Source: Candidatus Bathyarchaeota archaeon (GTDB lineage Archaea; Thermoproteota; Bathyarchaeia; Bathyarchaeales; Bathyarchaeaceae). From it: a stretch of 38,941 bases of DNA. The notes under the pieces are model-generated. The model was not told the DNA's origin. It worked only from the letters and a program-made list of their open reading frames with translations, and searched no databases. Position numbers and translations under genes: made by a program. Where the stretch lies: positions 1 to 38,941 of the forward strand of contig JAUWZP010000009.1 in the NCBI GenBank assembly GCA_030615265.1, written 5' to 3'. Shown one piece after another: positions 12,822 through 23,922 of the stretch; position 1 is the first letter of the stretch, and every line of letters starts with the position of its first letter.

Positions 12822-12944
12822 ATGGACCCTGGAATATTCTTTGAAAACGTTTTCATAACAATTTTGATAGCCTTAACCTTTATCACAATAGTTTTAACCT
12901 TCCTCTACATGACCTTCACAAGAGAAGAAACCGAAACAAGCTAA
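12822..12944 (+). CDS. 40-residue single-pass membrane peptide
   Basis: A short reading frame with a strong Shine-Dalgarno AGGAGAGG at 12811-12818, three bases before ATG 12822. The peptide begins MDPGIFFENVF, has one hydrophobic helix of about 22 residues (ITILIALTFITIVLTFLYMT) and ends with an acidic RREETETS-like tail. The good ribosome site, 46-nt spacing from the SWIM gene and clear membrane segment argue for a real gene. Function unknown; small peptides of this form often bind a larger membrane partner. Confidence 0.6.
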   Translation: MDPGIFFENVFITILIALTFITIVLTFLYMTFTREETETS

Positions 12945-13081
12945 ATCTTGCGTGTTTTCTCGTCGGTTCCATGTAATCTGGATTTCAGTAATCCGTTATT
13001 CGCATGTGTTCGAAACTTTGTATCGACTATATCAGGACAATCTACACATAACTACTCGCGCCTAACTTATCTTTGCCAAAG

Positions 13082-13093
13082 AGATAAATATCT
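13082..13093 (+). promoter_or_regulatory. Palindrome overlapping the TATA region of the MazG-TIR gene
   Basis: AGATA-AA-TATCT is a perfect inverted repeat about 40-50 nt before the GTG start at 13132 and overlaps the likely TATA element. It may simply be a symmetric TATA box or an operator; nothing further can be seen. Confidence 0.3.
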
Positions 13094-13131
13094 AATAACG
13101 TAAGCTTCACAGAAATTGAGAGGCTTCCACA

Positions 13132-14181
13132 GTGGACTATGAGAAATGGTCACTAAATGCTTGGAAGAACATGTTTAAGGAAATCTACGAAGATCGAAAT
13201 CTTCCATTTACCCCGGATCAAGTTCTTCACAGGTTAATTGAAGAAACCGCTGAGTTAGTGAAACCTATTCTAACAGTGAACATTAAAGACATTCAGTGGC
13301 ATCTAGCAGATGTAATCGCTTGGGTTTGCGCCTTCGCTACCAAGTATGACATCGATCTGGACGAAGTAATGTTCAGCAAATATGTGGAGAAAACCCCTGG
13401 GAAACCACCGGGGCAAACACCATTATCAACGTTTGCAGTAATCGGAAGAGGACGCCCGGAGAATCTTGAAGACTGGCAAAGCCTGCTGAATCATCTCTAC
13501 CGAGAAGAAAACGAAAACAATCCACCGACATTAATGCTCCTAAGACTCATGCAGGACATAGGAATTACCTCGAGAAAGCTTAGAGCCAGAGAGAACCCGA
13601 AGGAGATAAGGAATAAACTCGTCGGCATTCTCGGGTGGACCATCGCTATTGCCAACAAGTTCCAAATACCATTACATGAAATTACCTGGAACAAATACTC
13701 CAACATGTGCTGGAGATGCCAAGGCAAGCCCTGCAGATGCTTTAAGCTAGCGACACTTTTCATCAGCTATTCTGAGGAGACCGCGGAACAGATGAAGATG
13801 ATACGAAGGATGCTCGATGAATCTAATCTGAAAGCAAAGATACTCGAAGATTTGGGTTCGGCATTTCGAAGAAATAGAGTCGTTGAAGCGTTCAATGCTA
13901 TAAGTGAGTCCGACGGGGCAATAGTGCTGCTGGGGAAAGAGTGGAGCGCCAACGTTAACGCTGAACTTATTGAAATCTTTAGAGCGTTCGATAAGGGCAA
14001 TGTGAAAATATACGCAAAGGCTGTTTCGGACTCTGAGAGAGACCCTCGACTCAAGGACTTACTAAAGGATGTCGAACAGTTGCACGAAATCTACTACTAT
14101 CCCGACGATGAGAAACTTCAAGAAATAGTCATGAATAATCTAACTGATAAGCTGAGAGAACTCCACGAGTTGACAAAGTGA
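13132..14181 (+). CDS. Tandem MazG-like / zinc-knuckle / TIR-like fusion protein
   Basis: A 349-residue three-part protein. Residues ~1-85 form a MazG-like all-alpha NTP-pyrophosphohydrolase unit with Glu38/Glu41 (EETAE) and Asp60 (HLADV); the fourth usual acidic residue is His57. Residues ~110-190 repeat the fold in degenerate form (LVGILGWTIAIANKF). A four-cysteine knuckle follows (Cys193, 196, 201, 203: CWRC...PCRC). Residues ~205-345 look like a TIR or TIR-like Rossmannoid domain: TLFISYS strand, GAIVLLGKEW, and NAELIEIF with Glu278 at the place of the NADase glutamate. GTG start with GAGAGG upstream. I infer a nucleotide-sensing or NAD-consuming conflict protein; a nucleoside deoxyribosyltransferase-like fold is the alternative for the C-terminal part. 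Confidence 0.7.
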   Translation: MDYEKWSLNAWKNMFKEIYEDRNLPFTPDQVLHRLIEETAELVKPILTVNIKDIQWHLADVIAWVCAFATKYDIDLDEVMFSKYVEKTPGKPPGQTPLSTFAVIGRGRPENLEDWQSLLNHLYREENENNPPTLMLLRLMQDIGITSRKLRARENPKEIRNKLVGILGWTIAIANKFQIPLHEITWNKYSNMCWRCQGKPCRCFKLATLFISYSEETAEQMKMIRRMLDESNLKAKILEDLGSAFRRNRVVEAFNAISESDGAIVLLGKEWSANVNAELIEIFRAFDKGNVKIYAKAVSDSERDPRLKDLLKDVEQLHEIYYYPDDEKLQEIVMNNLTDKLRELHELTK

Positions 14182-14342
14182 AAAGCCAATAGTGAGACAT
14201 TAGTTGAGTATATGTCTCATATTTGCGTGTAAGGAAACCTTTTGAACTAGCCATGTGTTACCCTTTCATAAGCGTTTCAGCATCATGACTTTTTACTTAC
14301 TCGATAAGACCTGATGATGAATTCCTGCGGCTCTTGAAAAAG

Positions 14343-14446
14343 TGCCGGGGGCGGGATTCGAACTCGCGACTTCTGGGCGTGGCCCCTTTTTCTCACGCAC
14401 TCCAGATTATGAGTCTGGCGCCCAAACCAGGCTAGGCTACCCCGGC
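14343..14446 (-). tRNA. tRNA-Met (CAT), elongator type, with a 29-nt intron in the variable loop
   Basis: Acceptor 14440-14446 pairs perfectly with 14344-14350; discriminator A at 14343; CCA not encoded. D-stem GCCT/GGGC, anticodon stem CCAGA/TCTGG with loop CTCATAA (anticodon 14409-14411), T-loop TTCGAAT with one A-C mismatch in the T-stem. The variable region is 34 nt long. Cutting 14371-14399 leaves the normal loop AGGTC, and the junctions form a bulge-helix-bulge: 4-bp CTGG/CCAG between 3-nt bulges AGT and AAG, with a GCGTG/CACGC intron hairpin. The intron is thus at position 45/46. The anticodon stem lacks the three G-C pairs of initiators. Confidence 0.9.
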
Positions 14447-14928: not shown

Positions 14929-15050
14929 GGGCCCGTTGCCCAGTCAGGATTAAGGCGCCGAATTGCCCCAGAAAAAGCAATGTGCAAGCCTCCGAACATC
15001 CGATGGAAGAAAGCCGGAGACCAGGGGTTCAAATCCCCTCGGGCCCGCCA
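14929..15050 (+). tRNA. tRNA-Arg (CCG) with two introns, integration-site candidate
   Basis: Acceptor GGGCCCG pairs with 15040-15046, G discriminator and encoded CCA (15048-15050). D-stem GCC/GGC with an Arg-like GGATTAA loop; T-stem AGGGG/CCCCT. Intron 1 (14961-14987, 27 nt) interrupts the anticodon stem at 29/30: bulges CGA and AAG flank a 4-bp GCGC/GTGC helix, with an ATTGC/GCAAT intron hairpin. Intron 2 (14996-15011, 16 nt) is at the canonical 37/38 site with bulges GAA and AAA around CTCC/GAAG. Joined exons give a CCGGC/GCCGG stem and loop CTCCGAA, anticodon 14992-14994. An integrase gene begins 440 nt downstream. Confidence 0.9.
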
Positions 15051-15490: not shown

Positions 15491-16708
15491 ATGCCTGGAA
15501 AAGCCTTTGGAAAATTCCATCCTGAAGAACCGTTGGCCTTGCGGAGGTTCGAGATCTGTTTCAAAATTCAGTCTCGTAAAGGAGCAGCCAGTTGGAAGAG
15601 TTGTTATCCCAGCGTTCAAAACTTGTTGGATCATCTAAGTAGGTATACTCAGAGCGAGAGCTCTAGGGAAAAGTACCTACGTCACCTTCTACAGTTTCAT
15701 AGATGGTCCAGCCTTGGCCCTGAACAGTTGGTTGAACTTCCTAAGCGGAGAGCTCAACTGCTAATTCAGGGTTTTGCCGACGAACTTGCGGCAAAGGACA
15801 GGAGCAAAGCCTACGTAAATTCTGTGATCAAAAGGCTCAGAACGTTCTTCCGAGTTAACGGTTACATCGGCAACCATAAGCTAGAGGTTCACAGTTACTT
15901 CGTGCCAACACGTTACAGAAAAGTCCCAGAGTATATTCCTACTAAGACTGAGGTCTTCGCCATGGCGGATGCCGCTGGCAGTCGAAGAGACAGGGGGATC
16001 ATCCTAACATTATGGAGTAGTGGCTTGCGGGTATCCACGCTTTGTTCTCTGAACTATGGCGATGTCATGGATGAGTTGGAGAGAGGTGAGCCCTACGTGA
16101 TGATGCAGGTCAATCCCGCTATGAAAGAAAGGGTACCTGACGCCTGCAAAGGTCAGATCCCATATTACACATTCATTTGGTCGGAGGCGGGCGAGGCGCT
16201 TAGGAGCTACTTGGCAGAGAGAAGGGAAAAATACGGGAAGATAGCTCCAGATGACCCCTTGTTCCATTCTGATTGGACACTCTGGAACAGGGAGGAAAGA
16301 TCCAAGCGGAGACTAGGCAGGCGTGCAGTTGGGTTGATAGTTAAGAGGGCTGCCAAGTTTGCAGGGATCCATCAATGGAAGCATGTAACACCTCATACTC
16401 TGCGTAAATCATTCGAGTCGGCGTTAAGAAGCCCTACTGTCGATGGTGGGAGGTTGGACAAAGGTACCCAAGAGTTTTTTATGGGTCATATTCTTCCAGG
16501 AACCCAAGATGTATACTACGATAAGACGAAGGTCGACTTCCATCGAGAAGAATATGCCAAGCTGGACTTTTCGAGGAGTGGGATATTGAAGAGGAAAACA
16601 GTGGATAAGCTTATAGATATGGCAAAGTTGGAGGGCTATCTTAGTGACAGTTGGCTGTTTGTTGCTAAGGTTAGCGACAATAGAGTAGTTGTTAGGAGGA
16701 GTACCTGA
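15491..16708 (+). CDS. Tyrosine recombinase / integrase
   Basis: A 405-residue site-specific recombinase. An N-terminal SAM-like core-binding region (about 40-125) precedes the catalytic domain: Arg180 in SSGLRVSTLCSL, HTLRKSF with His302 and Arg305, the GHILPG histidine 333, and the nucleophile at Tyr342/343 (DVYYDKT). All catalytic positions are present, so it may be functional. Start ATG 15491 follows AAGGGGAAGCAAC. It lies 440 nt after tRNA-Arg, the usual arrangement for an archaeal integrative element whose att site is the tRNA 3' end; I could not find the matching second att copy in this window. Confidence 0.9.
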   Translation: MPGKAFGKFHPEEPLALRRFEICFKIQSRKGAASWKSCYPSVQNLLDHLSRYTQSESSREKYLRHLLQFHRWSSLGPEQLVELPKRRAQLLIQGFADELAAKDRSKAYVNSVIKRLRTFFRVNGYIGNHKLEVHSYFVPTRYRKVPEYIPTKTEVFAMADAAGSRRDRGIILTLWSSGLRVSTLCSLNYGDVMDELERGEPYVMMQVNPAMKERVPDACKGQIPYYTFIWSEAGEALRSYLAERREKYGKIAPDDPLFHSDWTLWNREERSKRRLGRRAVGLIVKRAAKFAGIHQWKHVTPHTLRKSFESALRSPTVDGGRLDKGTQEFFMGHILPGTQDVYYDKTKVDFHREEYAKLDFSRSGILKRKTVDKLIDMAKLEGYLSDSWLFVAKVSDNRVVVRRST

Positions 16709-16750
16709 AAAATGATTGGGATGGATCCCTGTAAGGGTTTGGTATACCCA

Positions 16751-16761
16751 TGCATGCATGC
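16751..16761. repeat. TGCATGCATGC repeat, copy 1
   Basis: Exact 11-mer inside a 17-nt alternating purine-pyrimidine run (16749-16765), in the gap between the integrase and the next gene. Confidence 0.6.
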
Positions 16762-16883
16762 GTATCTGTCACTGAATCTCATAAAACTTCATTTGAACAC
16801 AAGATTTTACCTTTCATCTATCATTTGCCTATTCAACTTGTCGTTCACTTGTTTTTTGAGCATTTGTTTTCTACCTTTGAACA

Positions 16884-17384
16884 ATGAAAGAGGTTGAAAT
16901 GATTATGGGTCGACTACAAAAGAAGAAGATCGACAAAATCCTACAGATGTTAGGACAAAATTTCACTGGCTTGGAAATATCAAAGGAAGTTGGATGTTCC
17001 ATCTCAACTGTTTACAGGATTAAAAAAATGCATGCATGCATTACGCCCAAATCGGTCGAGAGTTCCAATTATCGAATCAATGTAGAGTTGGCTAAAGCGC
17101 TTTGTGATGTGCTCTTAACATTGGAGTTTTTGCCATTTCTTAGTGAAGAGAATATAGGATGTATGACAAGAGACATTGCTAAAAACTTGATCACCAGGTT
17201 AGCTGAAATAGACCCTAAATTGGTAAGAAGTGTGTTAGAGGATTCCAGTTATTATGATTATCTTAGACCTATTATCATCGCAAAACCTGTGGAACTGGAG
17301 CAGCAGGATATTTTCTTTCGCAGGGAATGGATCGAGCTACTGAGAAAGTATTGGCCCGATATTTTGGCCGAATTTATCGTGTAA
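16884..17384 (+). CDS. Helix-turn-helix protein of the mobile region
   Basis: A protein of up to 166 residues with an N-terminal helix-turn-helix of the resolvase/homeodomain-like type (KIDKILQMLGQNFTGLEISKEVGCSISTVYRIKK, residues ~14-47; quoted as a region). The rest is helical with no recognised domain. ATG codons at 16884, 16899 and 16905 are all possible; AAAGAGG at 16887-16893 best serves 16899 or 16905. Copy 2 of the ATGC repeat lies inside the coding sequence just after the DNA-binding helix and encodes MHACI. Likely a regulator or recombination accessory of the element. Confidence 0.65.
   Translation: MKEVEMIMGRLQKKKIDKILQMLGQNFTGLEISKEVGCSISTVYRIKKMHACITPKSVESSNYRINVELAKALCDVLLTLEFLPFLSEENIGCMTRDIAKNLITRLAEIDPKLVRSVLEDSSYYDYLRPIIIAKPVELEQQDIFFRREWIELLRKYWPDILAEFIV
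17029..17039. repeat. TGCATGCATGC repeat, copy 2 (inside a coding sequence)
   Basis: Exact 11-mer within ATGCATGCATGCAT at 17028-17041, immediately after the helix-turn-helix codons of the gene at 16884. Confidence 0.6.
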
Positions 17385-17476
17385 AGGTAGTGGAATATGC
17401 TGTCTTTGCATGCAGTGTCCAACATTTGTGCACAAAAAAGCCGCACACGCGGACAAAAGGAGGTGATTGAAAGGTT

Positions 17477-17671
17477 ATGAATCGTTCTACTGAGTCTGAG
17501 CTAGTAAAGGTATGTTTTCGAGTTGACAAACAGACTTGTGATAAGATCCAAGATATTGTGGAAACATTGGGTATCCCGCAACATGAGATTCTGAAAAGAA
17601 TTCTTGAAAACTCGGAATCTATGAAAATCTTTGAAAACGCAACTAAGCACATGAAAAAACTGAGCAAATAG
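17477..17671 (+). CDS. Small RHH-like protein
   Basis: A 64-residue protein preceded by an excellent Shine-Dalgarno, AGGAGGTGA at 17458-17466, ten bases before the ATG. The pattern VKVCFRVDKQTCDKIQDIVETLGIPQHEILKRIL (residues ~10-43) reads as strand followed by two helices, as in ribbon-helix-helix DNA-binding proteins. A weak CCGC/GCGG hairpin precedes the ribosome site. Probably another small DNA-binding protein of the integrated element. Confidence 0.6.
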   Translation: MNRSTESELVKVCFRVDKQTCDKIQDIVETLGIPQHEILKRILENSESMKIFENATKHMKKLSK

Positions 17672-17751
17672 TTGTGGGCGTCGTTGATGGCGCCACGCAA
17701 GAGTCTTTTGGAAACTCGCTTAGAAGATATGAAGTGCAGGGGATTGGGTAT

Positions 17752-17776
17752 GAACCCTCCCTACAGTGGAGATATC
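17752..17776. repeat. tRNA T-arm-like direct repeat, copy 1
   Basis: The block starting GAACCCTCCCTACAGTGG and ending GATATC matches 24800-24823 with one substitution and one extra base, in the same orientation. On the minus strand it carries GGGAGGGTTC, the first part of a tRNA T-arm, followed by a degenerate acceptor-like CCCCTGCA. No 5' half of a tRNA is present. The stretch 17672-17986 otherwise holds no convincing gene. Confidence 0.5.
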
Positions 17777-17986
17777 TCCCGATTCCCTCCCCGCAAACCC
17801 CCTATTTTTCAGCTTTCGCCTTTGGTCATGCGCGGCTATCGAGCATCTTAAACTGACCACTTAAAGGCTTGGAGAGATTGCGAAAACAGAAGGGATTTAA
17901 AAGAAGCATGACCATGGTACAAACCGGAAATACTACGAGCGCTTGGTTAGCCCACTATCAGCTTTCATAGCATGCATACATGCAGC

Positions 17987-18121
17987 ATGGTTCCAGACAG
18001 ATTTGTGGATGTGTTTCAGGGACGAGCACCGAAGGGTATTCTTGCTAAACACTACACTGGAAAAGGACTTGAGAGACTTAAAAGAATACATCGGAAAGCA
18101 AATCTAAAGGTAATAGACTGA
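17987..18121 (+). pseudogene. C-terminal fragment of a second archaeal integrase
   Basis: The frame reads VPDRFVDVFQGRAPKGILAK then HYTGKGLERLKRI and a stop. FxQGRxPxxxLAKHY is the C-terminal pattern of archaeal plasmid/virus integrases of the pNOB8/SSV kind, with the nucleophilic Tyr in HYT. Only 44 residues remain open; the frame is closed by TAG at 17948-17950 and no R or HxxR box precedes it. It is thus a remnant, or the int(C) piece of an integrase split by integration. It lies 210 nt from T-arm-like repeat copy 1. Confidence 0.6.
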
Positions 18122-18128
18122 TCCAAGA

Positions 18129-18557
18129 TTATGTTTGTCCGAATTTGTAGGGCAACAAATCTGAAATGACGTATTTCTTCAATTTTCCATCGTCCGAAAG
18201 AATCACTTTAGTGTTAGTCCCATAATCGCTTATTAATTCCCGACAAGCACCACAAGGTGACACTATTCTGATTTCTTTGCCTTTTTCACGTAGATTTGGG
18301 TGTTTAACGGCTACGATGGTATCAAACTCATTCTCCCCCTCAGAGATGGCGCTTCCTATTGCAATTGCTTCTGCACAAATAGCTACTCTTCCAACATTCG
18401 TTTCAAGATGAACAGCAACGAAAATCTTACCTGATTTTGTGCGCAAAGCAGCGGCAACATGATGCTTTTTGTGTTTATAGTACTTCGAAATAGTATCTTT
18501 TGCCGCCTGAACTAGTTGCTTATCTTCGACTGTAAGTGGCAGAGCTTTCTTAATCAT
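18129..18557 (-). CDS. Cytidine deaminase-superfamily protein
   Basis: A 142-residue zinc deaminase of the CDA / blasticidin-S deaminase type. The zinc and proton-shuttle motif reads Cys61-Ala-Glu63 and the second half PCGAC at 101-105 (Cys102, Cys105). First ligand Cys instead of His places it with tetrameric CDA/BSD enzymes. Substrate may be cytidine, deoxycytidine or a nucleoside antibiotic; sequence alone does not decide. It diverges from the small gene at 18642 and lies next to other nucleotide-linked genes of this accessory region. Confidence 0.88.
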   Translation of the reverse strand: MIKKALPLTVEDKQLVQAAKDTISKYYKHKKHHVAAALRTKSGKIFVAVHLETNVGRVAICAEAIAIGSAISEGENEFDTIVAVKHPNLREKGKEIRIVSPCGACRELISDYGTNTKVILSDDGKLKKYVISDLLPYKFGQT

Positions 18558-18565
18558 TCCTTATT

Positions 18566-18610
18566 CACACGTGTGTACTAACGCACTTTCGCAATAATAG
18601 CTTTATATGG
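18566..18610. promoter_or_regulatory. Divergent promoter with CACACGTGTG palindrome
   Basis: One TTTATATG/CATATAAAG TATA element at 18601-18610 can serve both the deaminase gene (minus) and the small gene at 18642 (plus). A perfect 10-bp palindrome CACACGTGTG at 18566-18575 lies around the expected start of the deaminase transcript, 9 nt before its ATG. Operator function is inferred. Confidence 0.4.
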
Positions 18611-18641
18611 AGTATTCTCAGTCTATAAATTCCATAACTGA

Positions 18642-18926
18642 GTGCAAGTTAAGAAGGATGAAGAAAGCCGTGTGCGCATGTCCAAAATGTTAAAACTACA
18701 CTCACAAGTACTTTCACTGAGGAGATTTATGAATATGGAAGAAGATGAATTTAGAGAAGCTATTATTGGATATATGGCACTGATGACGAGTACCCTAGAG
18801 AAGATATCAGAGCATCTGGATTATATCGGAACTCGTCTTAATGCAATACACACGCAATTGGTTCGGCAACCTGCTTTGGAAGAGCAACGTTCAAAATCGC
18901 TCGGGCGAGGTACTGCTGCTAAATAG
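18642..18926 (+). CDS. Small helical protein, unknown
   Basis: About 94 residues starting at GTG 18642, some 32 nt after a TATA box, so possibly a nearly leaderless transcript; an in-frame ATG (MSKMLKLH) lies 12 codons in. Residues ~20-75 are strongly helical with heptad-like hydrophobics (LEKISEHLDYIGTRLNAIHTQL), suggesting a coiled coil. The tail is basic and low-complexity. No family recognised. Confidence 0.5.
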   Translation: MQVKKDEESRVRMSKMLKLHSQVLSLRRFMNMEEDEFREAIIGYMALMTSTLEKISEHLDYIGTRLNAIHTQLVRQPALEEQRSKSLGRGTAAK

Positions 18927-19060
18927 ACATTGTGTGTTTTATTCTGCGAACGCGTTCATTTCTCCCTGACGCTCGAAAGATGTTTCCTCAATTCCAAGTA
19001 GACTTCGGAGCCGTAGTCTTTCTCTTGGATGTTAACAAACTTCATCTTGACAATCATTGA

Positions 19061-19762
19061 TCAAGGGGGTGAGGGCTTTGGCTGCGTAAGATACCAAATC
19101 AACAGACTTATGATAACCGTAGAAATGCTCGCAACAAGAATAGATATCACACTAGTTTTGAATTTCTCTAGACCTCTGAGCCTCTTTTCATGTTCTCTGA
19201 GTCTTGGTTGAAGATATCGGATTATTGAGGCGATAGCCAAGCCATATTTCTTTCTTATTTCTTCTATGATTATTGGCCCTTCTATTGGTTGGGCAGGTAG
19301 CGGAGCAACAAGTGGCGGTCTTGGTCTGAACTCTAAGCCTGCAGGCGGGTTATCGTATTCGAAGAAAATAACATTGCAAATGCGCTGTCCATGTTTGAGA
19401 GTCATTGGAGTGTCAGAATCATTGGAGAATGTCAGCGTGAGCTTGTCGCGAAACATAGGGTCGATTTTTGTCCCAAGATTTGTCAACCCACCCCAAAGAA
19501 GGCTTATTCTCGTAGCTATAAAAGCAATCATGTTATCTTGCATTTTCAATTTCTCCAAGCTTTCGACCGCAAATCTCTCTCTAGGAGGAATTTTCACCGA
19601 CTTGCCTTGCTTTAGCCTTATCTCTTCACCGGAATTTAGTAACCATATTTTTTCCCCTATTCTTAGATCGTACCCGACGGGAGTTAAACAAGGCTCGCCC
19701 CCAAAAGGATCCAAGAGTTTAGTGTTGAGTTTTGTTATGTCAGTTTTTGTTAAGATCTTCAT
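19061..19762 (-). CDS. Membrane-tethered dUTPase/dCTP-deaminase-fold protein
   Basis: About 233 residues from ATG 19762 (MKILTKTDI, the usual dCTP deaminase opening); GTG codons at 19771 and 19768 are alternatives. Residues ~1-140 have the trimeric dUTPase-like fold: PVGYDLRI, ATRISLLWGGLTN, then GTKIDPMFRDKLTLTFSN, then HGQRICNVIF. The deaminase Glu expected in the ITLE-like strand is Thr here, so deaminase activity is doubtful. A Pro-rich linker (~142-160), a helical/coiled segment (~165-203) and one membrane helix (~204-224, VISILVASISTVIISLLIWY) follow, ending in a short PKPSPP tail. A tethered nucleotide sensor or pyrophosphatase is possible. Confidence 0.75.
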   Translation of the reverse strand: MKILTKTDITKLNTKLLDPFGGEPCLTPVGYDLRIGEKIWLLNSGEEIRLKQGKSVKIPPRERFAVESLEKLKMQDNMIAFIATRISLLWGGLTNLGTKIDPMFRDKLTLTFSNDSDTPMTLKHGQRICNVIFFEYDNPPAGLEFRPRPPLVAPLPAQPIEGPIIIEEIRKKYGLAIASIIRYLQPRLREHEKRLRGLEKFKTSVISILVASISTVIISLLIWYLTQPKPSPP

Positions 19763-19816
19763 AAACACCACTCAATTGCACAATGACACTCTTCCTGTAG
19801 AGAGTATATACATTTT

Positions 19817-20140
19817 TTGGCAACCCTAGGGGCAACTGTAATAAGTCTAATTGAAATATACAAAACCAATGCTGATGAACTCTTGCCGAGCAAAGGAAAA
19901 GCAAAGGAGAAACATCGCATATGTTTCAAAAGGGTTTTTACAGGTTCGTTTATGTTCACTTCAGGTATTGCAATATGGTACAATATCATGGCCAGCAAGC
20001 TTATAGAAGCTCTCCACACAGATTGGCAACCGATTGCTCACGGCATTGCTTCATCAATTCTTGTTCTCTGGATCTTCGCGGGCTTTTGGCTCTTAATATA
20101 TGGATTGTCCACACCTTGCCCAAAGCCGCTGGAATATTGA
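19817..20140 (+). CDS. Two-helix membrane protein divergent from the dUTPase-fold gene
   Basis: A frame of up to 107 residues opening with TTG; the true start is uncertain because no ATG precedes the first membrane helix. Two hydrophobic segments are seen near 39-60 (FTGSFMFTSGIAIWYNIMAS) and 75-98 (GIASSILVLWIFAGFWLLIYGL), with a basic stretch before the first. It shares a 54-nt divergent intergenic region with the membrane-tethered nucleotide-binding protein, hinting at a functional pair. No family recognised. Confidence 0.45.
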   Translation: MATLGATVISLIEIYKTNADELLPSKGKAKEKHRICFKRVFTGSFMFTSGIAIWYNIMASKLIEALHTDWQPIAHGIASSILVLWIFAGFWLLIYGLSTPCPKPLEY

Positions 20141-20214
20141 AGCTTCTGCACACGCGCGCACAAGGGAAAAGTTAAACAAGCCGGAATAGAATGGGGTAGT
20201 GGAGATGCAGGAAC

Positions 20215-20430
20215 ATGACATGTGTTGTCTGCCCAAAATGTCGAAATCAAAAAGTGACGCAAGATCCAAACAATCATAGAAACTTCAATTGCTCCAGATG
20301 TGGCAAGTTTGTACTTTTGCCGGTGGAACCTGAAAGCGAAGATCTGTCTGCTATATGGGACTATTTGATACAAGCTGGAAAGCATTTGAAAGGGTTGGAG
20401 CAATCGGAGATACTTAAACGCTCACGATAG
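20215..20430 (+). CDS. Small zinc-ribbon protein
   Basis: A 71-residue protein with a zinc ribbon formed by CPKC near residues 6-9 and CSRC near 26-29, spaced 16 residues apart. The C-terminal half is helical and acidic/basic mixed. ATG follows a GGAG site. It may bind nucleic acid or act as a partner of neighbouring genes; nothing more specific can be said. Confidence 0.6.
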   Translation: MTCVVCPKCRNQKVTQDPNNHRNFNCSRCGKFVLLPVEPESEDLSAIWDYLIQAGKHLKGLEQSEILKRSR

Positions 20431-20472
20431 ATCTCACATGCGCCTAATAACCTGTTAGGCTCTTATCTCATG

Positions 20473-20483
20473 TGCATGCATGC
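20473..20483. repeat. TGCATGCATGC repeat, copy 3
   Basis: Exact 11-mer in a 16-nt alternating run (20469-20484). The intergenic region 20431-20671 holds nothing else recognisable except the promoter of the following operon. Confidence 0.6.
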
Positions 20484-20671
20484 AAAACGCTACAGATTTG
20501 AACTAGCATTCTACAATGTGAAGTTTGTTGAGAAACGTCGGGGAATTGCGTTTCGTGCAGACTAGGTGACGTTGTATCTTTTGCTGAAGAAAGAAACGAG
20601 TCGAATGATTGGGAAAGCTAGTGTTTGCGCAAGATAAATAAAACGTTAGGTCTAATAATTGGTTGATTAGT

Positions 20672-21604
20672 ATGAGTGACAATTCTCAGTTTTCTTTAGA
20701 CAATCTTTTGGTTGAAGAAGAAGAGGTTAGGCCACCGGTTATTATGCCAGTTACTGTACTCGTTTGCGAAACTGAATATGACGAGCTGAAAGATTTGAAG
20801 GTATTCCAAAACGAAATCAAAAAGAAGCTTCTCGAAGATTATGGTTTCCGAAAAGGAGAGCGAAGAAAACGGAGAGAGGGTTTTCTTGATTTTAGTGCAT
20901 CTGGAAGGATAATCACGTGCATATATGCGAGAGAGACTCCGATGAGAATTGACTATGAGAAGGGCGATTTGAAAATAAACACAGCAAGACTTCGGACAAT
21001 TAGTCCTTCCTATCGAGTTAGAGTTATCGTCTATATAACAAAAACAAAAGCTAGAGTTGTACTTTTTGGTGGACATGACAGAATCGCAGCTTCAGCTCTT
21101 AGACTGGTAAACTACTGTATTAGAGGGGCTTTGAAAGGAAGTTTCAACACTTACCAACCTGCATTTTCCAAGGAGGAGATGGACAAAATACGTTCGCATT
21201 TTGGTGTGGAAATTCAATATGTTTTCCTTTCCCCTGGACAAAGTGAAAAACTGAAGAAGTTTGCAAGGAAACGTATTGCAGGAGAAATCAAGGAAATCCT
21301 TCAATACTTTGTGCGAGCTAAGTTTTCAGGCTATCGTGTAGTGGCTTCGCCTGTTGTGCTAGATCTGATTGAGGAAGGAAAGATTTCGATTCTTGAGGTA
21401 GAAGGAAGTCTGAGCTTCATGGGTGTGGGAATCACTACACGAGTATCAGCCAGTGGAAGGATAACGTTTTTTGTACCTGAACTCATCATTGGAAGGAACC
21501 AAACAGCCTATGGAATAGCAGAAGAATTATACAAGAGGATCGTATCTCAAAGGACTGGTGCAAAACAGCTTAGAATGGAGGAGTTTTTCCCTGGATCGGC
21601 CTAG
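20672..21604 (+). CDS. Uncharacterised protein A of a two-gene operon
   Basis: About 310 residues from ATG 20672 (GGTTGAT lies just upstream; a TTG at 20663 would add three). The N-terminus is acidic (EEEEVRPP), followed by an alpha-beta region with VTVLVCETEYDELKDL, a run of basic residues (RKGERRKRREGF) and strands around ASGRIITCIYAR and YRVRVIVYITKTKARVVLF. A second part (~165-300) is helical then beta, with the motif ASGRITFFVPELIIG echoing ASGRIITCIYA of the first half, perhaps an internal duplication. No family recognised. Its end overlaps gene B. Confidence 0.65.
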   Translation: MSDNSQFSLDNLLVEEEEVRPPVIMPVTVLVCETEYDELKDLKVFQNEIKKKLLEDYGFRKGERRKRREGFLDFSASGRIITCIYARETPMRIDYEKGDLKINTARLRTISPSYRVRVIVYITKTKARVVLFGGHDRIAASALRLVNYCIRGALKGSFNTYQPAFSKEEMDKIRSHFGVEIQYVFLSPGQSEKLKKFARKRIAGEIKEILQYFVRAKFSGYRVVASPVVLDLIEEGKISILEVEGSLSFMGVGITTRVSASGRITFFVPELIIGRNQTAYGIAEELYKRIVSQRTGAKQLRMEEFFPGSA

Positions 21605-22991
21605 TTCTGAATTGTCTCTGGATACTCTTCTTTCAATGTTAAGTGAGAAAGATTTTAGAGATATAACATTCTGCAAAAGATTAATAAAGCGAGCCTTTCG
21701 TGAGAAGAACCTTCGATTACTCAAGAGTTTATTGAATAAGGTAAGTGCTCTATTCATTTTTTCTGCTGAAGAATTCAGGAAAGAAATCATCGAGTTTGTT
21801 TATTCCGAAATGAATTCGTGGACGTTTGAGGAAATCCTTGATGTTTGTAAAGAATCAGTCCTGGGCAATGTTATAACAGTATGTTATTTCATGAGGAAAG
21901 TCGGCGTCATAACATTAGAGAAGCTAGAAGTGTTTGTAGCTTTGTCGAAATTGGATTACATTGAAGATCCTCTGACTTTCAACTTCATTCCTACGAAAGA
22001 AGTGCTTATTCTGGATTTAAACGAAAGAGTGAACTCCTTGATTAAGGCTCCAACAATCGAAAAGGCTATTGAAGTTTGCGAGCTTTTTTTCATTAATGGA
22101 AGATTAGAGAAATCAAAAGATACGATATCCGGAATGTTGCTTCTCTATGAGAACTCTAAACGACCAGAACAGAGATTCAAAGGAAGTATAATCTCAGCAT
22201 TACTCTCTAAGAGATTAGATATGTTTCTGAGTCTTATTAAGAGAGTCTACAAAGATATAGAAGACAAAAAGGGAGTTGTCAAACACTATATAGAAATCTT
22301 TGATTTGCTTGTCAGAGTTGGAGTTCCTGTTTTCTCTGACTTCAACAATTACCACGTTGAGTTCGATAAGTTTTACAATGACAATTTCTATTTTGCACGA
22401 TTGTTGGACAAGTCAGGAAATGAACGTTTAATCTTTCCATTTGAGCAGATCGATGTTGTGCAGGTACAACAGATATTCGACCTAGAGACTGAAGCCTTTG
22501 TGACACCAAAAGGAAGAATAGGAAAGGTAATGCTCAACGGTGTCTATTCTTTTAGAAAAATCCGTGAAATTACTGAAGTTACTAATGAGCAGGTAGAGAT
22601 TACCAAGAAAATGTTAGAAGATGAAATAGAAGAGAAAATGCGAGGAATATTGCAGGATCAGAATATTACTTCTCATAGCCCCGCAGAAAAAACAGATGTT
22701 TATGAACATAAGCTGTTTGTTAACAATGAGAGTGACCTTAGAGATGTTGGCATAATCATTAAGGGAAGAGGATATCCTAAGATTTCTCTACATAATGTAG
22801 CTTCTAATATTCTTAAGGCTGTGGACTTGCCTGTTCAGATAGTTTTTCTCATTCACACAGGAATTCTTCTAGATGAAGCAAGGGAGAAATTCACAAATCA
22901 ATGTGATCGAGCAAAGAAAATGCATTGTGTCGTTGATCCTGTAGATTTGACAAAATTGCTGGTCGCGTACAGAAAACTTCCAAATGAGTGA
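21558..22991 (+). CDS. Uncharacterised protein B of a two-gene operon, largely helical
   Basis: Up to 477 residues; the frame opens with GTG 21558 inside the end of gene A, with an ATG at 21636 as an alternative. Residues ~25-250 are helix-rich and resemble an alpha-alpha repeat without a named signature. The C-terminal ~100 residues (DVGIIIKGRG, IVFLIHTGILLDEAREKF, MHCVVDPVDLTKLL) recall the late strands and helices of restriction-endonuclease-like (Mrr-type) domains, but the ExK pair is not evident, so a dead nuclease fold is only a hypothesis. The 47-nt overlap suggests co-translation and a complex with A. Confidence 0.65.
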   Translation: MQNSLEWRSFSLDRPSSELSLDTLLSMLSEKDFRDITFCKRLIKRAFREKNLRLLKSLLNKVSALFIFSAEEFRKEIIEFVYSEMNSWTFEEILDVCKESVLGNVITVCYFMRKVGVITLEKLEVFVALSKLDYIEDPLTFNFIPTKEVLILDLNERVNSLIKAPTIEKAIEVCELFFINGRLEKSKDTISGMLLLYENSKRPEQRFKGSIISALLSKRLDMFLSLIKRVYKDIEDKKGVVKHYIEIFDLLVRVGVPVFSDFNNYHVEFDKFYNDNFYFARLLDKSGNERLIFPFEQIDVVQVQQIFDLETEAFVTPKGRIGKVMLNGVYSFRKIREITEVTNEQVEITKKMLEDEIEEKMRGILQDQNITSHSPAEKTDVYEHKLFVNNESDLRDVGIIIKGRGYPKISLHNVASNILKAVDLPVQIVFLIHTGILLDEAREKFTNQCDRAKKMHCVVDPVDLTKLLVAYRKLPNE

Positions 22992-23117
22992 TGCATTGGA
23001 ACTATTTCCAAGTTGATATAACATCCCCAAAAAAGATTGCAGGGCCTATTAACGTGACACAAGAGACATCGAACTTTTCTTTGGATTTTTTCTTATATAG
23101 AATTATATATAGGATTT

Positions 23118-23128
23118 TGCATGCATGC
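23118..23128. repeat. TGCATGCATGC repeat, copy 4, at the udg start
   Basis: Exact 11-mer lying between a TATA-like ATTATATATAGG (23102-23113) and the udg ATG at 23143, a position where a bound protein could interfere with transcription. Confidence 0.6.
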
Positions 23129-23142
23129 ATCGATGATGAAAC

Positions 23143-23742
23143 ATGTCGAAAAAAGAGGTTATGGAAACAGTTGCAAATGAGGTTAAAGCCTGTCGAAAAT
23201 GCAGGTTAGGAGAGACCAACACAAACGCTGTTCCAGGCGAAGGAAGCTTGGACGCCACGGTACTGTTTATAGGCGAAGCCCCAGGCTATTGGGAAGATGT
23301 AAAAGGAAGACCTTTCGTTGGTACAGCTGGCAAGCTTCTAGACGCCTTGCTGCGCGAAATCAATCTTTCTCGAAGCACAATCTACATAACCAATGTGGTT
23401 AAATGTAGACCTCCAAAGAATCGAGCCCCCTCGCCAATTGAGGTGGAAACCTGCACACCTTATTTGAAACATCAAATCAAAACTGTTCAGCCAGAAATCA
23501 TAGTAACTCTGGGCAGACACGCCACTTCTTTCATTCTCTCCGAGTCGGGGATTAAAGAAGCTGTGAGCATAACGAAGCTTCGTGGAAAAGTATATTCTGT
23601 AAAGCTTTTCGGGGTGCCAGTTTCGGTGCTTCCAACTTTTCATCCGGCTGCAGTTTTGTACAACGCCAAATATAGGGATCCTTTAGAGCATGATTTTCAG
23701 CTTTTGGAGTCCTTAATAGAGAAATCTCGGCAAGGGTACTAA
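23143..23742 (+). CDS. udg: Type-4 uracil-DNA glycosylase
   Basis: Removes uracil from DNA in base excision repair. The 199-residue protein has family-4 motifs GEAPG at 44-48 and HPAA at 167-170, and four cysteines (17, 20, 88, 104) positioned to bind a 4Fe-4S cluster. Length is normal. ATG 23143 lies ~30 nt after a TATA box, so the transcript may be nearly leaderless. It lies next to dUTPase-like and cytidine-deaminase genes, all linked to uracil in DNA or nucleotide pools. Confidence 0.95.
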   Translation: MSKKEVMETVANEVKACRKCRLGETNTNAVPGEGSLDATVLFIGEAPGYWEDVKGRPFVGTAGKLLDALLREINLSRSTIYITNVVKCRPPKNRAPSPIEVETCTPYLKHQIKTVQPEIIVTLGRHATSFILSESGIKEAVSITKLRGKVYSVKLFGVPVSVLPTFHPAAVLYNAKYRDPLEHDFQLLESLIEKSRQGY

Positions 23743-23762
23743 TGAGTTAGTGATGCCTCAGG

Positions 23763-23807
23763 GTATGTATACATGCGCACACAAAATTCAATGAACATGT
23801 ATGCATG
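23763..23807. repeat. Pair of alternating purine-pyrimidine tracts
   Basis: A 21-nt run at 23763-23783 (including GTATGTATACATGCGCAC) and a 13-nt run at 23795-23807 (ACATGTATGCATG). They lie in the 327-nt gap between udg and the methyltransferase remnant, which contains no gene. Confidence 0.45.
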
Positions 23808-23922
23808 GCAAAAAAGGGGAGTTTGCGGGAGAAGTTCCGAACAAATTCGGGTGCTGATATCACATAGCGAAAGCCGCTTTTCATATGTAAATTTGATTAG
23901 GGTTTTAATGTTGATTATTGCT

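Follow-up and report, generated by a model that had tools for sequence, protein, structure and literature searches.

A tandem MazG–zinc knuckle–TIR-like fusion protein encoded at a variable, tRNA-linked site in a bathyarchaeal genome

The gene and its insertion site

The stretch of Candidatus Bathyarchaeota DNA considered here (38,941 nt; hereafter, the window) includes ORFs for SecY, an L15-like ribosomal protein and a proteasome-like subunit, sequences that, when read, mark it as archaeal. On the forward strand, positions 13132–14181 correspond to an ORF with a GTG start that encodes a protein of 349 residues, as reported in a first-pass annotation of the same DNA; upstream of the GTG, the frame stays open for only four more codons (353 residues in all). 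A TATA-like sequence, gATAAATATc, can be read on the same strand at positions 13083–13092, 40–49 nt before the start codon, and the gene likely has its own promoter. From N- to C-terminus, the single chain comprises a MazG domain (MazG1), a second MazG copy (MazG2) and a zinc knuckle, followed by a domain of TIR-like type. Profile comparisons support this composition, which the first-pass annotation had read correctly.

Examination of the corresponding region in two congeners, G001 and G002, revealed an empty site. Where the window contains some 1.4 kb with the MazG-TIR gene alone, the congeners contain approximately 62 nt, the segment absent from both extending roughly from position 12945 to 14325. 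The surrounding genes, namely those for SecY, L15, a flavodoxin, a SWIM protein, a 40-residue membrane peptide and a tRNA, are kept in both congeners at 78–88% nucleotide identity, with the gap lying between the membrane peptide and the tRNA. As such, the gene is accessory, whether it was gained in the lineage of the window or lost in a line shared by the congeners, and the empty site agrees with accessory, mobile behavior. The 40-residue peptide bordering the segment (12822–12944, +; MDPGIFFENVFITIL...) contains one likely membrane helix, is unannotated and is conserved in the two congeners.

On the other side, the segment is bounded by an intron-bearing tRNA gene (14343–14446, −; Rfam, 55.1 bits) with a CAU anticodon as judged by eye, kept in G001 and G002. 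This is followed by a second tRNA gene with a long insert (14929–15047, +; Rfam, 36.3 bits), kept in G002, and by a gene encoding a tyrosine integrase (15491–16708, +; Pfam Phage_integrase, 2.2e-11). The first pass had already noted both insert-bearing tRNA genes (104 and 119 nt by Rfam) and the integrase; the second tRNA was missed by ARAGORN in its bacterial setting and found by Rfam. The integrase yielded no tblastn match in the syntenic place in G002 (L118), from which an AsnC-like gene is also missing. Because no duplicate of the tRNA 3′ end occurs anywhere in the window, the integrase cannot be credited with having moved the MazG-TIR gene.

The site had been described as a typical place for defense genes. 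That part of the description which concerns a tRNA-linked, variable position holds, given the empty site in both congeners; the neighbors, however, offer no such indication, since a PADLOC scan of ten window proteins gave no match, and the one homologue described below lies amid housekeeping genes. Further along the window, a protein of the dCTP deaminase/dUTPase family with a likely C-terminal membrane helix (19061–19771, −) is encoded near a cytidine deaminase (18129–18557) and a uracil-DNA glycosylase (23143–23742).

Distribution of the fusion protein

A search for homologues with the same domain order returned one, encoded in another class of the phylum (G350:C12:45379–46398) and sharing 45% identity with the window protein over residues 2–346. 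This was exactly the only full-length match in a phylum-wide search of 398 genomes, and the same copy was again the sole match among TIR-bearing proteins when a second draw of the phylum was searched with a MazG-only profile. No second full-length copy was detected in 257 genomes of the window's own class, either in a full-length search or in a TIR-only search of that set, no further copy appeared in 40 genomes of the homologue's class, and none of full length in 44 and 81 genomes of two further classes, the genome sets of these separate searches overlapping. Relatives were likewise absent from the viral contigs, genome contigs and phages searched, while matches among plasmids were limited to MazG-like proteins at 25% identity. 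Both source assemblies are multi-contig and probably metagenomic, and these two sequences are all that are known. The full-length homologue from another class, with its identical domain order, shows that the fusion did not arise through misassembly.

Identity between the two proteins differs along the chain, amounting to 57% in MazG1, 58% in MazG2, 67% in the knuckle and 28% in the TIR-like domain. The far greater conservation of the MazG half would fit a constrained ligand-reading module joined to a fast-evolving effector. That the fusion is instead selfish cargo, or is decaying in hosts where no function of it is under selection, is considered very improbable. Such a fate could be read from the existence of only two known copies, the rapid evolution of the TIR half and the insertion by a tRNA near an integrase, yet the frame is open in two classes, and identity of 45% overall and 57–67% in the MazG and knuckle segments across these classes requires long purifying selection.

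The genomic context of the homologue did not bear out the idea that such proteins are encoded near defense genes. Rather, with ORFs judged by eye, the G350 copy sits between housekeeping genes, its neighbors resembling diphthine synthase, an aldolase and aldehyde:ferredoxin oxidoreductase.

MazG copies, zinc knuckle and TIR-like domain

MazG1 spans residues 1–87 (13132–13392, +). The Pfam MazG model (PF03819) matches residues 26–88 (E 1.2e-7; 32.3 bits against a cut-off of 22), and the closest solved structure is that of SSO3215 (PDB 1vmg; E 5e-7). The EETAE and LADV motifs singled out in the first pass were located at E37–E41 and L58–V61, respectively. To consider the state of the metal site, 48 MazG domains were aligned, 40 from standalone archaeal MazG-knuckle proteins and eight from tandem proteins. 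The four acidic positions corresponding to E38, E41, E57 and D60 (window numbering) are kept in the 40 standalone domains. In MazG1, three of these ligands (E38, E41 and D60) are retained, but the third is His57 (codon 13300–13302) in both fusion proteins, a replacement that had been overlooked when the acidic motifs were first described.

A linker of residues 88–108 (13393–13455, +), delimited by pairwise alignment and 53% identical to that of the homologue, leads to MazG2, residues 109–191 (13456–13704, +). The proposed degenerate repeat is genuine, as the local alignment of MazG1 and MazG2 scores 101 (BLOSUM62), whereas none of 1000 shuffles exceeds 50 (25 ± 4.4); in the homologue, the two copies score 70 against a shuffle maximum of 49. 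By alignment, the ligand columns of MazG2 are occupied by D142, I145, K161 (arginine in the homologue) and a glycine at the aspartate position, such that the metal site is lost and MazG2 is, judging from these columns, a pseudo-domain. Neither copy thus presents the four-acidic-ligand pattern ExxE...ExxD. With His57 in MazG1 and no metal site in MazG2, each chain combines an altered pocket with a partner domain that is dead. Membership in the MazG family is assigned by homology, and canonical catalysis is not claimed.

The 3/16/3 spacing of the ligands in archaeal MazG proteins is also that of Mycobacterium tuberculosis MazG, the correspondence being one of spacing. There, Mg2+ is coordinated by E119, E122, E138 and D141, and the E138A variant retains 20–40% of activity (PMC10014863). 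Because His57, by this spacing, falls at the position of E138, MazG1 may be a weakened enzyme or a binder.

MazG2 is followed by the zinc knuckle (residues 192–206; 13705–13749, +), seen earlier as CxxC-x4-CxC and here placed at C193-x2-C196-x4-C201-x-C203, with all four cysteines invariant in the homologue. The knuckle is absent from MazG1, whereas MazG2 ends in KY...C193-C196-C201-C203, as do archaeal MazG-knuckle proteins. These standalone proteins (SSO3215/1vmg-like) share the MazG fold, the KY..C-x2-C-x4-C-x-C ending and roughly 20–37% identity with each half of the tandem, but differ from the fusion in having one domain, a full acidic site (E38/E41/E57/D60) and no TIR domain. MazG matches (E ≤ 1e-10) were found in 115 of 257 genomes of the class, and the window genome itself also encodes an ordinary standalone MazG-knuckle protein.

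The C-terminal region (residues 207–349; 13750–14178, +) contains a FISYS strand. Pfam TIR_2 matches residues 210–308 of the window protein at E 0.0025 and 18.7 bits, below the curated cut-off of 28 bits, and the homologue has no Pfam TIR match; for these reasons, the domain is termed TIR-like. When the C-terminal domains of the two fusion proteins were compared with 18 archaeal TIR domains using hhalign, an E-value of 2.7e-6 (probability 88%) was obtained, as opposed to 0.41 for a reversed TIR alignment and 0.17 for a flavodoxin alignment. Similarly, an HMM of the 18 TIR domains placed the window protein and the homologue immediately after the TIR loci, ahead of every remaining frame in a set of 1375, albeit with weak E-values (0.019 and 0.14, respectively). 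These comparisons back the earlier assignment of the region from FISYS to ELIE. Glu278 (codon 13963–13965), proposed in the first pass as the counterpart of the catalytic residue of TIR NADases, indeed aligns with the catalytic glutamate column, which in TIR domains belongs to the helix following core strand three, and is retained within the ELIE motif of the homologue; the BB-loop region has diverged. Single-sequence AlphaFold modeling gave a pLDDT of 44 for the full protein and 49 for the TIR part, the latter consisting of alternating strands and helices, and fold searches with these models, whose confidence is too low to bear out any fold, returned no matches. Overall, the profile comparisons make it highly probable that the C-terminal domain is a TIR domain.

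Another match to this region, between residues 204–311 and ferritin-like YciF (PDB, E 3e-4, two-sequence profile), was rejected as an artefact. YciF is all-helical, and the TIR comparison beat both the reversed and the flavodoxin controls.

TIR domains and deoxyribosyltransferases have a common fold. As such, a housekeeping or metabolic enzyme was considered, in which a C-terminal nucleoside deoxyribosyltransferase-like domain would serve nucleotide clean-up together with base exchange or salvage. The position of the homologue amid housekeeping genes is in line with this, as are the genes for cytidine deaminase, the DCD/dUTPase protein and uracil-DNA glycosylase 4–10 kb downstream in the window. 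Nonetheless, the N-terminal strand is of the TIR-type FISY form, the Pfam, hhalign and HMM rankings favor TIR, no deoxyribosyltransferase model was matched by the domain in these same comparisons, and a very patchy distribution with an empty site in congeners is atypical of a metabolic gene. An enzyme of this kind is thus held to be improbable.

Alternatively, the protein could itself degrade dNTPs or modified nucleotides as an active nucleotide pyrophosphohydrolase, its TIR-like domain acting only in oligomerization or localization. Phage MazG enzymes hydrolyze dGTP and dCTP (PMC6850273), MazG1 retains three of the four Mg ligands at the exact spacing, and the activity remaining in the M. tuberculosis E138A enzyme, altered at the His57 position, is compatible with turnover (PMC10014863). 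Opposed to this are the histidine as third ligand in both proteins, the dead second copy, the retention of Glu278 although the TIR-like domains are only 28% identical, and the standalone MazG-knuckle protein already present in the window genome. This possibility is deemed unlikely.

A putative nucleotide-gated TIR effector

The first-pass annotation had proposed a single-gene system in which the MazG part senses and the TIR part executes. This sensor-effector arrangement is the best-supported reading, because one MazG metal site is mostly kept, the TIR glutamate is retained at 28% identity, the fusion is very rare and the congeners present an empty site; the roles of sensing and execution, and with them ligand binding, coupling between the domains, NADase activity and antiviral action, are what we infer from these features. 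More precisely, the gene may encode a mobile conflict protein, probably antiviral, in which a nucleotide-binding module derived from MazG controls a TIR effector, a proposal to which somewhat less than an even chance is given. In such a protein, the MazG1-MazG2 pair would stand in for a MazG homodimer in pseudo-symmetric form, and its one nucleotide pocket would bind, or turn over only slowly, a nucleotide, deoxynucleotide or altered nucleotide that becomes more or less abundant upon infection. Ligand binding would then alter assembly of the protein via the knuckle hinge, bringing TIR domains together, and Glu278 of the assembled TIR would cleave NAD+, leaving the cell arrested or killed. Against a conflict protein stands the fact that no known defense gene was recognized beside the window copy (PADLOC, ten proteins) or its homologue (by eye).

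KomB and KomC of the Kongming system are HAM1-like and SIR2-like, respectively. In that system, dITP, made by KomA and a phage kinase, binds KomB, upon which KomC is activated and NAD+ is depleted (PMC12948488). The likeness to what is proposed here, namely a nucleotide-binding protein gating NAD+ depletion, is one of functional analogy and not of membership, since Kongming relies on separate genes, whereas the MazG-TIR protein is one chain without partner genes. Indeed, no KomA, KomB or KomC neighbors were found in the window ORF lists, nor was there a PADLOC match, although the version employed (2.0.0 of 2023) may lack Kongming.

Archaeal TIR proteins can be glutamate-dependent NADases, as is TcpA (PMC10937652). 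TcpA and the TIR-STING proteins of CBASS resemble the fusion in their TIR domain with a conserved catalytic glutamate, used alone or with a sensor, but no MazG-type sensor fused to a TIR domain is described in the literature covered. A MazG-type domain is also found in Atd1, a phage anti-defense pyrophosphatase that opposes TIR-STING defense (PMC10419184); in contrast to the protein considered here, Atd1 is phage-encoded, acts against defense and is unfused. No description of a MazG-TIR fusion was found in the literature covered, which left out most subscription journals. The fusion is a new combination of known parts.

Should the TIR domain instead make a signal, nucleotide sensing would lead to a cyclic ADP-ribose isomer that acts on an unlinked effector, following Thoeris-like logic. 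Several prokaryotic TIR proteins make such isomers (PMC10022894). On the other hand, the ten window proteins gave no match to a Thoeris or other effector in PADLOC, and the gene is solitary, likely with its own promoter; this version is accorded a low probability. Partner effector or CD-NTase genes of Thoeris or CBASS were found neither among those ten proteins (PADLOC) nor beside the homologue (by eye).

Returning to the gated effector, a more specific and more tentative proposal is that the duplicated MazG, with its Glu-to-His pocket and dead copy, serves as a receptor for nucleotides and acts as the direct switch of a TIR NADase, a new one-protein defense design. If so, house-cleaning nucleotide enzymes would have given rise to immune sensors twice independently, once in Kongming and once here in archaea. 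The trigger sensed by prokaryotic TIR proteins is often unknown, whereas here a sensor candidate is covalently joined. Given that the MazG family has known ligands (NTPs and modified dNTPs), trigger and effector could be addressed in one purified protein. Confirmation would tie nucleotide-pool surveillance to NAD+ depletion within one archaeal polypeptide, in parallel to Kongming via a different enzyme family.

Three tandem MazG proteins without a TIR domain are encoded in the same class, in genomes G038, G010 and G236. Like the fusion, they comprise two copies, one degenerate and one with an intact site, together with knuckles; they differ in lacking the TIR domain, in that the dead copy is N-terminal and in having knuckles on both copies. 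In a tree of 50 MazG domains, the ten tandem domains split from the 40 standalone domains with support of 99/94, with long branches and few columns. In the flanking stretches examined, no TIR genes were seen beside these tandem MazG genes, nor MazG genes beside other archaeal TIR genes.

The gene for the G038 protein (L053:5604–6593) has radical SAM, NUDIX and dCMP deaminase-like genes as neighbors, along with, by eye, DNA methylase-like genes; genes judged by eye to be McrB/McrC-like lie 6–9 kb away, and this locus may be an uncharacterized nucleotide-based defense island. The G010 gene (L054:10242–11138) is followed by genes for a methyltransferase, a radical SAM protein and a dTMP kinase (NCBIfam, above cut-off). 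The G236 protein (L108:9338–10390; 350 residues), whose N-terminal copy is degenerate, matched nothing in Pfam at E ≤ 0.01. The surroundings of the G038 and G010 genes suggest that tandem MazG proteins, as a group, are part of nucleotide-linked accessory systems. A radical SAM protein encoded next to a tandem MazG gene without TIR was considered as a viperin (PADLOC pVip, 3e-19) and rejected, as its score with the NCBIfam viperin model (51 bits) falls short of the cut-off of 180 bits and is exceeded by that with a tungsten-cofactor maturase model.

Elsewhere in the window, two overlapping ORFs of 313 and 477 residues (20663–22991, +) are without Pfam or PADLOC match, and palindromic motifs of the TGCATGCATGCA type are repeated between genes across positions 16744–23816 (at 16744, 17029, 20473 and 23118).
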